Under the pieces are notes generated by a model, which saw only the letters and a list, made by a program, of their open reading frames with translations, had not been told where the DNA came from and did not search any database. The translations under genes and the position numbers were made by a program. From Micromonospora yangpuensis (GTDB lineage: Bacteria > Actinomycetota > Actinomycetes > Mycobacteriales > Micromonosporaceae), in the NCBI RefSeq assembly GCF_900091615.1, contig NZ_FMIA01000002.1:5642001-5706000 (forward strand): 64,000 nt of DNA, written 5' to 3'. Below are positions 4,783 through 60,003 of the stretch, one piece after another (positions within the stretch are counted from its first letter, which is position 1; each line of letters starts with the position of its first letter).

Positions 4783-4838
4783 GTAAGGAAGGGCCCCCTG
4801 TTATCGCTTTCGGTATAGGAAGGGTCCCCTGCAAACAA
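4783..4838 (+). repeat. dispersed palindromic element, copy A
   Basis: The copy begins TAAGGAAGGGCCCCCTG, has the conserved core TTATCGCTTTCGG, and ends AGGAAGGGTCCCCTGC. Its right half is rearranged relative to the palindromic copies: the second AGGAAGGG is direct rather than inverted. It occupies most of the 102-bp gap between alr and nnr. Confidence 0.8.
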
Positions 4839-4845
4839 CCACGGG

Positions 4846-6315
4846 TCAGCCGAGCCCGGCCAGCACCGGGCGCAGCGCCGCCGCCACGTCGGGCGCGGTC
4901 ACCGGCCCACCCCGGGCCGCGGCACGACCGGCCAGCCCGTGCAGGTACGCCGCCGTCGCCGCGGCCCGGTCCGCCGGCACCCCGGCGGCGAGCAGCGACC
5001 CGAGCAGTCCGGCCAGCACGTCACCGGTCCCCCCGGTGGCCAGCGCCGGGCTGCCGGTCGGGTTCACGTACGCCCGGCCGTCCGGCATGCCGATCACCGT
5101 ACGATCGCCCTTGAGCAGGACCACGGCGTTCATCCAGGCGGCCAGCCGCAGCGTGGCGGCGACCCGGTCGGCGCCCGGTTCCTCGCCGCAGAGCCGGGCG
5201 TACTCCCGGTCGTGCGGGGTGACCACGATCGGCGCGTCCCGGCTGCGCAGCTGGTCGGCCATGCCGCCGTCCACCAGCAGGGTGAGCGCGTCGGCGTCGA
5301 GCACCACCGGCACCGGCGCGGCCAGCACCGCACGCAGTTCGGCGGCGGCCTCCGCGCCGGTGCCCAAGCCCGAGCCGCAGACCCAGGCCTGCACCCGCCC
5401 GGCATCGGCTACCCGCTCGGTGGCGATCACCGACGGGTGCTGGTGGACCACCTCGGCCCGCGCGCTCCCGGCGTACCGGACCAGGCCGGTCGGGCCGGCC
5501 AGGGCCCCGCCGACCGAGAGCACCGCCGCACCCGGGTACGTCGCCGAGCCGGTCGCCACCCCCACCACGCCCCGGGTGTACTTCTCGCTCGCCGGGCCCA
5601 GCGCCGGCCACCAGTCGCGTACGTCCGTGCCCTCGACCACCTGCAGGGCCGGGGTACCGCGCAGGAACGGCCCGAGCCCGATGTCGACCAGTTCCACCTC
5701 GCCGGTCAGCGCGGCGGCCGGCCCGACCACCAGCGCCGGTTTCCACGCGCCGAACGCCACGGTCACGTCGGCGCGGATCGCGTTCGGCCGGCCGGCGGCG
5801 GTCAGCGGCACGTCACCGGTGTCCACCGCGACCCCGCTGGGCACGTCCACCGCGACCACGGTCGCCCGGTCACCGTCGCGGCCCAGGTGCCGGGGGAGGC
5901 TGGCGGCCAGTTGCTCGGCGGGCTCCCGCAACCCGCCGGTGCCGCCGATGCCCACGATGCCGTCGAGCACCAGGTCGACAGTTGCCGGTGGGCGGTCCAC
6001 CACCCGGCCACCGGCCAGGCGCAGCGCGGTCAGCCCCTCCGCGTGCGCCCGGGCGGGGTCGAGCAGCAGCGCCGAGACCGCCGCTCCCCGCCGAGCCAGC
6101 TGCGCCCCGGCGAACAGGGCGTCACCGCCGTTGTCACCGGAGCCGACCAGCAGCAACACCCGACCGCCGTACACCCCGCCCCGGTCGGCCAGCAGCAGCG
6201 CGCAGCGGCGGGCCAGGCCGGTCGCCGCCCGGCGCATCAGGGTGCCCGCCGGCAGGGTGGCCATCAGCTGTGCCTCGGCCGCCCGTACGTCGGCCACCCG
6301 CCACACCGGTCTCAT
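4846..6315 (-). CDS. nnr: bifunctional NAD(P)H-hydrate repair enzyme (epimerase + ADP-dependent dehydratase)
   Basis: A 489-residue fusion repairing hydrated NAD(P)H. The N-terminal YjeF_N epimerase domain (about 1-205) contains MRRAATGLA, LLVGSGDNGGDALF and VDVPSGVAVDTG. The C-terminal YjeF_C/carbohydrate-kinase domain (about 230-489) has KYTRGVVGVATGS, VVLDADALTLL, TPHDREYARL, LKGDRTVI and the ATP-site GGTGDVLAG. ATG at 6315 follows GGGAG. It lies between acpS and alr, the normal actinobacterial context. The C-terminus ends shortly before palindromic copy A. Confidence 0.95.
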   Translation of the reverse strand: MRPVWRVADVRAAEAQLMATLPAGTLMRRAATGLARRCALLLADRGGVYGGRVLLLVGSGDNGGDALFAGAQLARRGAAVSALLLDPARAHAEGLTALRLAGGRVVDRPPATVDLVLDGIVGIGGTGGLREPAEQLAASLPRHLGRDGDRATVVAVDVPSGVAVDTGDVPLTAAGRPNAIRADVTVAFGAWKPALVVGPAAALTGEVELVDIGLGPFLRGTPALQVVEGTDVRDWWPALGPASEKYTRGVVGVATGSATYPGAAVLSVGGALAGPTGLVRYAGSARAEVVHQHPSVIATERVADAGRVQAWVCGSGLGTGAEAAAELRAVLAAPVPVVLDADALTLLVDGGMADQLRSRDAPIVVTPHDREYARLCGEEPGADRVAATLRLAAWMNAVVLLKGDRTVIGMPDGRAYVNPTGSPALATGGTGDVLAGLLGSLLAAGVPADRAAATAAYLHGLAGRAAARGGPVTAPDVAAALRPVLAGLG

Positions 6316-6353
6316 GCCTGTGCTCCCGTCCGGTCCAGAATCGTGCGGTCCGC

Positions 6354-6438
6354 CGGTCAGCGTTCCGCTACCACCGCCGTCCCTCGGTCAGCGTTCCGCT
6401 ACCACCGCGGTCCCTCGGTCAGCGTTCCGCGACCACCA
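6354..6438 (-). repeat. 31-bp tandem repeat spanning the acpS stop codon (three copies)
   Basis: The unit CGGTCAGCGTTCCGC(T/G)ACCACC... occurs at 6354-6384, 6385-6415 and 6416-6438. The third, partly diverged, unit is the real 3' end of acpS (GTCGCGGAACGCTGA on the minus strand). The other two lie downstream and each repeats the terminal codons plus TGA. They read as duplications of the gene end. Confidence 0.9.
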
Positions 6439-6787
6439 TCGCCGAGGCGATCCCGCCGTCGTGGGACAACGACAGATGCCAGCGGTTCACTCCCCGCTCG
6501 CTGGCGGCCGACGCCACCGTGCCGGAGACCGTCAGCCAGGGCCGTCCGTCGGGATCCGGCACGATCTCGCAGTCGTGCCAGCTCAGCCCGGCCGGCGCGC
6601 CGAGGGCCTTGGCCACCGCCTCCTTCGCCGCGAACCGGGCGGCCAGCGACTCCGGTGAGCGTGGGTTGCCCGAGGCGGTGTACCGCTCGCCCTCGGTGAA
6701 GAGCCGGTCGGCCAGCAGCGGGGTCCGGGCCAACGCACGGGCGAACCGGTCCACCAGAACCACGTCGATACCGACAGCCACGATCAC
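6419..6787 (-). CDS. acpS: holo-[acyl-carrier-protein] synthase (4'-phosphopantetheinyl transferase)
   Basis: AcpS transfers phosphopantetheine from CoA to apo-ACP for fatty acid synthesis. At 122 residues the product has normal length. GIDVVLVDRF near the N-terminus carries the Mg-binding Asp. ARFAAKEAVAKALG in the middle carries the second acidic ligand and the catalytic Lys. HLSLSHDGGIASAMVV closes the fold. I chose GTG at 6787 (VIVAVGID) because a GGGTGGGTTGG purine run precedes it; a second GTG six bases later is possible. The 3' end is tandemly repeated (see the repeat at 6354). Confidence 0.93.
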   Translation of the reverse strand: MIVAVGIDVVLVDRFARALARTPLLADRLFTEGERYTASGNPRSPESLAARFAAKEAVAKALGAPAGLSWHDCEIVPDPDGRPWLTVSGTVASAASERGVNRWHLSLSHDGGIASAMVVAER

Positions 6788-6851
6788 CCAACCCACCCTA
6801 CCGGCGGCAAAGCGCCGCAGATTACCCACCGGGTTCGCCGGAGGCAAGACC

Positions 6852-58864: not shown

Positions 58865-58884
58865 GACAGCACCGTCCCGATGCC

Positions 58885-58979
58885 GCCGTACCCGGTCAAC
58901 GCCGTACCCGGTCAACGCCGTACCCGGTCAACGCCGTACCCGGTCAACGCCGTACCCGTTCAACGCCGTACCCGGTCAG
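58885..58979 (-). repeat. 16-bp tandem repeat spanning the aldo/keto reductase stop codon (six units)
   Basis: GCCGTACCCGGTCAAC occurs at 58885, 58901, 58917, 58933, 58949 (one variant base) and 58965 (partial). The last unit holds the gene stop (58976-58978). Confidence 0.93.
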
Positions 58980-59929
58980 AGTAGGGCGCGCAGGGCGGCC
59001 CAGTCGGCGGCGTCCGGCCGCCAGGCCCCGGCCTCGGCGTTGGCGCGTACCTGGTCGGCGGTGGTTGCCCCGGCGATCACCGAGGTCACCGCCGGCTGGG
59101 CGGCCAGTCCGCCGATGGCCACCTGGAGCATCGAGAGTCCCCGCTCGGCCGCGTACGCCTCGATCGCCTCGATGGTGTCCCAGTCGGCGGCGGCGAGGCG
59201 CTCGGCGTACCGGCCGCCGCCGGCCAGCCGGGTGCCCTCCGGGGGCGCCGAGCCACGCCGGTACTTGCCGGTGAGCAGCCCGTCGGCGAGCGGGAAGAAC
59301 GGCAGCAGCCCGAGGCCGAACCGCTCGCAGGCCGGCACCACCTCCGCCTCGACGCCACGCTCCAGCAGGCTGTAGTGGTTCTGGGCGCTGATGAACGGGG
59401 TCATGCCGCCGGTGCGGGCGGTCCAGTCGGCATCGGCGATCTGCCAGCCGGTGAAGTTGGAGTTGCCCAGGTAGCGGACCTTGCCGGCGCGGACCAGGTC
59501 GTCCAGCGCCGCCAGGGTCTCCTCGATCGGCGTACCCGGATCGGGCTGGTGCATCTGGTACAGGTCGATGTGGTCGGTGCCGAGGCGGCGCAGCGACGCC
59601 TCCACCGCGCGGGCGACGTACCGGCGGGCGCCCCGGGCGTCGAAGTCCGGGCCGTTCATGCCGTGCATGTCCATGCCGAACTTGGTGGCCAGCACCACGT
59701 CGTCCCGGCGGCCCTTGAGCGCCTGGCCCAGCACCTCCTCGGAGGCGCCCTGCGGCTCGCCGTAGATGTCCGCGGTGTCGAAGAGGTTGATCCCCGCGTC
59801 GATCGCGGCGTCGACCACCGCCCGGGTGCCGTCGAGGTCCAGCTTGCGGCCGAAGTTGTTGCAGCCGATGCCCACCACGGACACCACGAGCCCGGAGTCG
59901 CCCAGCCTGCGATATGCCATCTCAGTCAC
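58976..59929 (-). CDS. aldo/keto reductase
   Basis: A 317-residue TIM-barrel NADPH enzyme. Catalytic tetrad: Asp and Tyr in LFDTADIYGEPQGASE, Lys in VLATKFGMD and His in DLYQMHQPDPGTP. The cofactor end reads IAGATTADQVRANAEAG. It resembles actinobacterial general AKR/IolS-like oxidoreductases; the substrate is not known. GTG at 59929 lies six bases after TAGGGT (a leaderless-type promoter), and an ATG three codons on is the alternative. Its 3' end is tandemly repeated, and its upstream region is palindromic copy F. Confidence 0.9.
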   Translation of the reverse strand: MTEMAYRRLGDSGLVVSVVGIGCNNFGRKLDLDGTRAVVDAAIDAGINLFDTADIYGEPQGASEEVLGQALKGRRDDVVLATKFGMDMHGMNGPDFDARGARRYVARAVEASLRRLGTDHIDLYQMHQPDPGTPIEETLAALDDLVRAGKVRYLGNSNFTGWQIADADWTARTGGMTPFISAQNHYSLLERGVEAEVVPACERFGLGLLPFFPLADGLLTGKYRRGSAPPEGTRLAGGGRYAERLAAADWDTIEAIEAYAAERGLSMLQVAIGGLAAQPAVTSVIAGATTADQVRANAEAGAWRPDAADWAALRALL

Positions 59930-59935
59930 CGCACC

Positions 59936-59941
59936 ACCCTA
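59936..59941 (-). promoter_or_regulatory. candidate -10 of a leaderless aldo/keto reductase promoter
   Basis: TAGGGT on the minus strand ends six bases before GTG at 59929. Its upstream neighbour is palindromic copy F, which would include the -35 position. Confidence 0.35.
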
Positions 59942-59947
59942 TGCGAG

Positions 59948-60003
59948 GTGTTAGGAAGGGGCCCCTGTACAACGTTTTGCGATAACAGGGGGCCCTTCCT
60001 TTC
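59948..60003 (-). repeat. dispersed palindromic element, copy F
   Basis: Plus strand: GTGTTAGGAAGGGGCCCC, GCGATAACAGGGGGCCC, ending TTCCT. It lies between the aldo/keto reductase start and the ABC-F stop, in the reverse orientation to copies A, C, D, E. Confidence 0.88.

Follow-up and report, generated by a model that had tools for sequence, protein, structure and literature searches.

The 64,000-nucleotide (nt) stretch of the Micromonospora yangpuensis genome analysed here (the window) carries six copies, A to F, of a short palindromic element that recurs a few hundred times in this genome of 6.52 Mb in two contigs. The element is a hairpin repeat of ~57 nt (57–59 nt) built of two inverted halves, termed L and R below, and most copies at gene ends begin with L at the stop codon and are read along the gene. 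The family itself, its polarity, its anchoring to stop codons, its insertion as a unit (at one coding site) and the alternative hairpins found at the same gene ends can be read directly from the sequence. The polarity, the stop-codon anchoring and the differing conservation of L and R are new with respect to an earlier note on this DNA, which had described six copies only. We propose that this is a transposase-orphan palindromic family similar to repetitive extragenic palindromic (REP) sequences and REP doublets forming hairpins (REPINs), in which L-first copies form mRNA 3′ ends, tripartite L-R-L′ copies are shared by two genes and R-first copies are tolerated. We give this reading about an even chance of being correct.

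With three mismatches or fewer allowed, a 27-letter pattern has 240 matches genome-wide, and a version with an A/T-tolerant core has 279; the reversed-pattern controls gave 0, which excludes chance. The REP-like dispersed family at gene borders that the earlier note had suggested is thus real and far larger than six copies, and the profile search of this genome and its relatives proposed there returned further copies, which were placed by gene border and orientation. The counts that follow come from a sample of 1.264 Mb out of the 6.52 Mb, consisting of the window and 60 stretches of 20 kb each; most stretches were picked around listed matches, so that densities and the share of TAA stops are enriched. 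Elements were accepted at a profile E value ≤1e-6 in this genome and ≤1e-4 in relatives, weaker matches being left out, and genes were called with the author's codon-usage script and left uncurated.

The cross-species consensus of 48 sequences is GTGTAAGGAAGGGCCCCCTGTTAACGCnTTCGGTAGAGGAAGGGCCCCTTCTTAACACC, its first half being L and its second half R. The ends, GTGT...ACAC, are terminal inverted repeats, and the element is shorter than ~200 bp and has no coding capacity, as expected of a miniature inverted-repeat transposable element (MITE). Among 126 copies from M. yangpuensis, L is near-invariant: positions 5–17, 22, 23, 25 and 26 are conserved at 99–100%, with A or T at position 24. In the more variable R, GGG and CCC are kept, and at several positions the top letter reaches at most ~55%. 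L is conserved also at positions that have no need to pair, while R varies. A 23-letter L pattern has 121 exact matches in the 1.264 Mb and 15, 5 and 3 matches with one, two and three mismatches; an order-2 Markov control gave 0. The counts rise again at four, five and six mismatches (30, 27 and 74 vs. 0, 3 and 10 in the control), these matches probably being R arms and partial arms. Such a bimodal distribution indicates that the conservation of L is more than a search artefact. When both halves of the consensus are read the same way, they also resemble a single palindromic unit repeated at a distance of 31 bp. The outer end of the consensus is GTGT; the inner foot of R reads GTAG in many relatives and TATAG in many M. 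yangpuensis copies. A perfect hairpin at L050:597-655 resembles two inverted R arms without L.

The 128 sampled elements lie between tandem (58), convergent (49) or divergent (13) genes, inside genes (5) or at stretch ends (3), the last two groups being left out of the distance counts. As with REPs and REPINs, the copies are numerous, mostly intergenic (120/128), close to gene 3′ ends and able to supply stop codons. There are 89 L-first copies that follow a gene of like orientation, and 79 of them begin within 8 nt of the stop of that gene. If copies were placed uniformly in these gaps, 19.5 would be expected, and the maximum across 20,000 simulations was 35. L-first copies are lacking at 10–60 nt past stops. 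The ratio of L-first to R-first copies at stops is 43:1 between convergent and 35:2 between tandem genes. Thirty-one of the 79 stop-hugging copies (32 in a slightly different count) supply the TAA that ends the gene, and in only five cases does a gene end further within an element. This element-enriched sample has 1,036 stops, 68 of them TAA, and 34 of these 68 lie within an element. The protein barely changes in length: one gene ends CGC CTG TAA in M. yangpuensis vs. CGC CTC TGA in three of five relatives, and the phosphoglucosamine mutase at copy B ends ASPV, several close homologs ending ASPVA or ASPVS. Where an L-first copy lies near a stop, the next tandem gene begins a median of 133.5 nt past it; for R-first copies the median is 47.5 nt. 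Outside the genus, 18 of 19 L-first copies lie at −6 to +5 nt of a stop (27 elements on 18 stretches from four genomes of two genera, the stretches being the best profile matches).

Nine composites in the sample carry two outward L arms 36–43 nt apart with an R-like stretch in between, the gap being 36 nt in seven, 37 in one and 43 in one. Five of these composites have an L end within 8 nt of a stop on both sides, the stops being those of the flanking genes, and the remaining four on one side. A strand-specific signal that serves both genes would require two outward L arms. Six more outward L pairs, with gaps of 5–6 or 95–107 nt, bring the outward pairs to 15. Nine inward and 21 same-strand L pairs also occur within 140 nt, some of them presumably an L together with its own R read as L.

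Being inverted, L and R are able to fold into a long hairpin, the inverted-pair arrangement of REPs and REPINs. For an L-first copy, the predicted fold is a GC-rich hairpin just past the stop in the direction of the gene, as in an intrinsic terminator. The tail is CCCTTTTTAAC or CCCTTnTTAAC in several relatives; the U-tract is weak in M. yangpuensis. When arms were swapped among the 48 sequences, the mean fold went from −27.2 (real) to −25.9 kcal/mol (swapped; standard deviation 0.35), a difference to which shared ancestry may contribute. Orthologous gene ends were compared with and without the element. At one of these ends the element follows the TGA within a few nucleotides in 13 of 21 genomes; among the eight genomes that lack it, an unrelated strong hairpin (−35 to −44 kcal/mol) occupies the place in seven and is missing from the last (−19). 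At a second, the element is present in M. yangpuensis and G006; unrelated hairpins of −31 to −42 kcal/mol occur in G019, G021 and G032, and a weak one in G002. At 27 element-free orthologous ends the best hairpin averages −30.6 kcal/mol vs. −24.9 at control ends (110 of 186 sampled, 76 being left out; p = 0.011). At L054:17302 and orthologous sites in L070-L089, all upstream of one gene, several genomes free of the full element have an L-like stretch (such as GTAAGGAGGGGnCC), which is either a decayed copy or a precursor.

The family is patchy yet widespread in the Micromonosporaceae. Within the genus, where per-genome profile scoring counts to 34 matches, 134 of 160 genomes gave one match or more and 56 gave at least 34. 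In a sample of the bacterial family, matches occur in 72 of 200 genomes, which represent 17 of 44 genera; 24 genomes from other families of the order gave 0 pattern matches. Among the matches listed in a scan of named genomes (80 loci) are Micromonospora, Plantactinospora, Catellatospora and Asanoa. Sister species can differ sharply: G006 has 222 copies by pattern and at least 34 by profile vs. 0 by profile in G062, and G022 has 28 by pattern and at least 34 by profile vs. 0 by pattern and 5 by profile in G033. A second dispersed palindrome of ~55 nt, GTYGATCATGARGTT...AACYTCATGATC, is present in several relatives; 0 pairs of it occur in the 1.264 Mb of M. yangpuensis sequence.

Table 1. Locations of the window copies, the riboswitch and the second palindrome
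Feature	Location	Strand	Form or setting	Basis
Copy A	4781..4838	+	full length	profile 58.9 bits, gene calls, Pfam
Copy B	12293..12350	-	L-first	profile 66.2 bits, gene calls, homologs' C termini
Copy C	19488..19544	+		profile 46.3 bits; translation, protein alignment, filled/empty loci
Copy D	44505..44562	+	R-first	profile 50.2 bits, gene calls, Pfam DAO and ThiG
Copy E	45686..45743	+	R-first	profile 54.7 bits, relatives
Copy F	59948..60005	-	L-first	profile 46.6 bits, flank list
Thiamine pyrophosphate (TPP) riboswitch	46447..46555	-	ahead of thiE-like gene	Rfam RF00059, 65.3 bits
Second palindrome	L198:17839, L202:18328, L203:3402, L204:16464, L071:14654, L074:14174, L080:15563, L083:16828, L085:14678, L212:914			
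Second palindrome, variant	L076:4888			

All six copies reported in the earlier note were recovered, with profile scores from 66 bits (B) to 46 bits (C). That note regarded D, E and F as intact and lying in gene gaps. The profile built from the genome's own copies matches all six across ~56–59 nt, so that full length holds for every copy; the placement does not stand as described, D and E being intra-operon and C intragenic. The phosphoglucosamine mutase-like gene (12345-13697, minus) stops on the TAA of copy B at 12345-12347, and copy F lies one base past the TGA of an ABC-ATPase gene (60007-61677, minus). The R end of copy A is ~8 nt past the stop of a minus-strand gene (4846-6306) and its L end faces the start of an alanine racemase gene (3625-4743), so that A is R-first for both neighbours. 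A thiamine operon headed by the TPP riboswitch holds copies D and E, both R-first, on either side of a thiO-like gene (44556-45677, minus). Copy D separates this gene, whose TAG falls within the R end of the element, from a small gene upstream of thiG, and copy E lies between it and a thiE-like gene (45829-46452, minus). Of 29 fetched relatives, 20 carry an element at the site of E, a count that favours filled sites since these relatives are the best matches. R-first copies within this operon fit a one-way terminator and also fit tolerated insertions. The Rfam covariance models gave the TPP riboswitch alone for the window at the gathering threshold; two element-bearing loci compared with Rfam at E ≤1 gave three matches, none of them on an element. 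The window also contains a large tandem duplication (47001-57805), two adjacent very large genes of 1559 and 1942 aa having stretches 82–86% identical ~4.98 kb apart. Short tandem repeats are found at 58868-58994 (16-nt unit), 62669-62833 (33), 39141-39200 (15) and 39620-39754 (15), several of them within or overlapping called genes.

Copy C bears on how the element moves. It is an in-frame 57-nt insert (19 codons) within a molybdopterin oxidoreductase gene (18084-20141). Among the 30 best-matching genus loci fetched, the insert is present in 10 (decayed in two), partial in one and absent in 19, and the site differs by 51 nt between the sister species G022 and G033. The comparison of filled and empty loci shows, for this one coding site, that the element inserts as a discrete unit. 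The earlier note saw no transposase nearby, and this can be extended for the REP type to the whole genome, which has 0 Y1_Tnp matches and none to the model NF047646 of the REP-associated tyrosine transposase (RAYT) at E 0.001; other transposase families were not searched. Across 41 genomes, NF047646 gave no match over the cut-off and weak matches in nine. Y1_Tnp is present in 45 of the 160 genus genomes, without association with copy number: 17 of the 56 genomes with at least 34 copies have a Y1 gene (39 have none), as do 28 of the 104 others. An impression from a smaller set that Y1 genes avoid element-rich genomes fails on these figures. The MITE-like character suggested earlier stands as regards the inverted ends and fails as regards target-site duplication. 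In 127 flanks no offset or length gave a convincing excess, the best of more than 1,000 combinations being 3 vs. 0.15 expected, and a MITE with target duplication was rejected. No autonomous parent with the same ends was identified, no dedicated search for long elements having been made. Carriage by viruses or plasmids was likewise rejected: viral contigs gave 0 exact matches and a blastn comparison with plasmids none, a phage collection not being searched.

Taken together, these data point to a non-autonomous dispersed element of ~57 nt, composed of two inverted short palindromes, that inserts as a unit, as seen at the site of copy C. Gene-end copies mostly read stop codon, L, loop and R along the gene; since they start at stop codons and follow the gene direction, they probably mark mRNA ends. 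We infer that the transcript of an L-first copy folds into a GC-rich hairpin with its 5′ foot at or next to the stop codon, and that this hairpin makes or defines the mRNA 3′ end as an intrinsic-terminator-like signal. The near-invariance of L exceeds pairing needs, which suggests that some factor may recognise it by sequence. Genes flanking a tripartite copy would share it, each meeting an L, and poor or absent termination may be why R-first copies are tolerated between genes that are transcribed together. Several observations weigh against this reading. The L-first tail in M. yangpuensis has no clear U-tract (consensus CCCYTCTCAC). The mean fold is −24.4 kcal/mol for L-first and −26.3 for R-first copies; R-first transcripts being slightly more stable, hairpin strength does not explain the polarity. 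Covariation in the L:R stem is weak and was rejected as proof of the stem, and arm swapping within the genome reveals no co-adaptation (−24.37 real vs. −24.38 swapped). Strong hairpins starting 0–21 nt from the stop are common at element-free control orthologs, so that adjacency alone is not special, and the set of orthologous ends is small (27 ends from only eight genes, eight of the ends from one site). There are also 13 divergent and five intragenic copies, and in other genera R-first copies end within 8 nt of a stop in 5 of 13 entries.

Other explanations share part of this evidence. The element could be a selfish miniature moved in trans by a transposase and functionless at gene ends, where it survives because other insertions are harmful. 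The contrast between G006 and G062 and the unit insertion of copy C agree with this. However, mere tolerance does not predict the L-first polarity, the 31 in-frame TAA ends vs. five in other frames or places, or the lack of L-first copies 10–60 nt past stops, and the flanks lack a target duplication; we consider this possible but unlikely. Position and polarity would be identical if transcription ended further on and the hairpin blocked 3′ exonucleases, acting as an mRNA 3′ stabiliser or processing signal as proposed for some REPs, and this would accommodate R-first copies within a transcription unit such as the thiamine operon. The terminator-like hairpins that take its place at orthologous ends and the promoter-sized gaps behind L-first tandem copies speak against such a stabiliser, neither decisively, and on balance we find it rather unlikely. 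If instead a protein bound the invariant L in double-stranded DNA, as a roadblock or in nucleoid or uptake functions, with the termination-like placement being secondary, the conservation of L where no pairing is needed, the variability of R and the likeness of L and R to one unit repeated 31 bp apart would follow; but a duplex has no reason to track the frame and direction of each gene, which makes such a site improbable. A classical REP family moved by a RAYT transposase has the right architecture and gene-end habit. It is largely refuted, and was rejected, by the absence of Y1 and NF047646 matches from the genome, the failure of NF047646 to exceed its cut-off in any of the 41 genomes and the lack of a Y1 association with copy number, and we regard it as hardly credible.

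REP-like repeats are known to crowd gene ends, be it by tolerance or by function. The polarity, the in-frame stops, the two-sided form and the unrelated hairpins at the same ends in relatives make the role of the present family testable by 3′-end mapping, and the sharp contrasts between sister species provide natural pairs with and without the element. High copy number has been attained in genomes with no detectable Y1 transposase. A more far-reaching version of our proposal, which we hold only tentatively and think doubtful, is a sequence-specific 3′-end system in part of the Micromonosporaceae: L would be read by a factor, the element would have spread without a REP transposase and replaced ordinary terminators at hundreds of stops, and L-R-L′ would serve two genes. 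If this is true, translation stop and transcript end coincide at hundreds of genes.

Among known systems, the DNA uptake sequences of Neisseria and Haemophilus form sequence-conserved inverted repeats that act as terminators past stops; the present unit differs in its 57 nt and unequal halves. No description of the family was found in the open-licence literature searched, as judged largely from listings. In the parts of the sources available, PMC13323073, on runaway transcription, has one mention of stop codons and nothing on this family, PMC8990736 concerns only clustered regularly interspaced short palindromic repeats (CRISPR), and the E. coli intrastrand triplex repeats (PMC4666352) were rejected since their consensus differs. 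The terms for actinobacteria and several actinobacterial genera that were searched for do not occur in the main text of the REP study by Di Nocera et al. (2013, PMC3733652).

As far as the available parts of the review PMC10969869 describe them, the SPRITE and other MITEs are likewise dispersed repeats resembling a Rho-independent terminator; they differ from the present element, for which no target duplication was found and no parent transposon identified, and belong to another lineage. The Rickettsia palindromic elements, covered by parts of PMC10969869 and PMC3733652, are palindromic inserts kept in frame in protein genes, as is copy C, whereas here only 5 of 128 sampled copies are intragenic and most abut stop codons. 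The closest likeness is to the REPs and REP dimers of the GTAG and CGTC families, as presented in those parts of PMC3733652: short palindromes in inverted pairs at high copy number, mostly between tandem or convergent genes near 3′ ends, with some copies intragenic. For convergent REPs the distance to the 3′ end is mostly 20 bp or less, and REP ends often supply stops, TAG in their case and TAA in ours. The gene-end habit is therefore already known from REPs. The L end of the present consensus is GTGT and has no GTAG or CGTC foot, although GTAG occurs inside, at the foot of R. No RAYT was found, and the family is set apart by its near-invariant half, its strict L-first polarity, its tripartite form and its host group.

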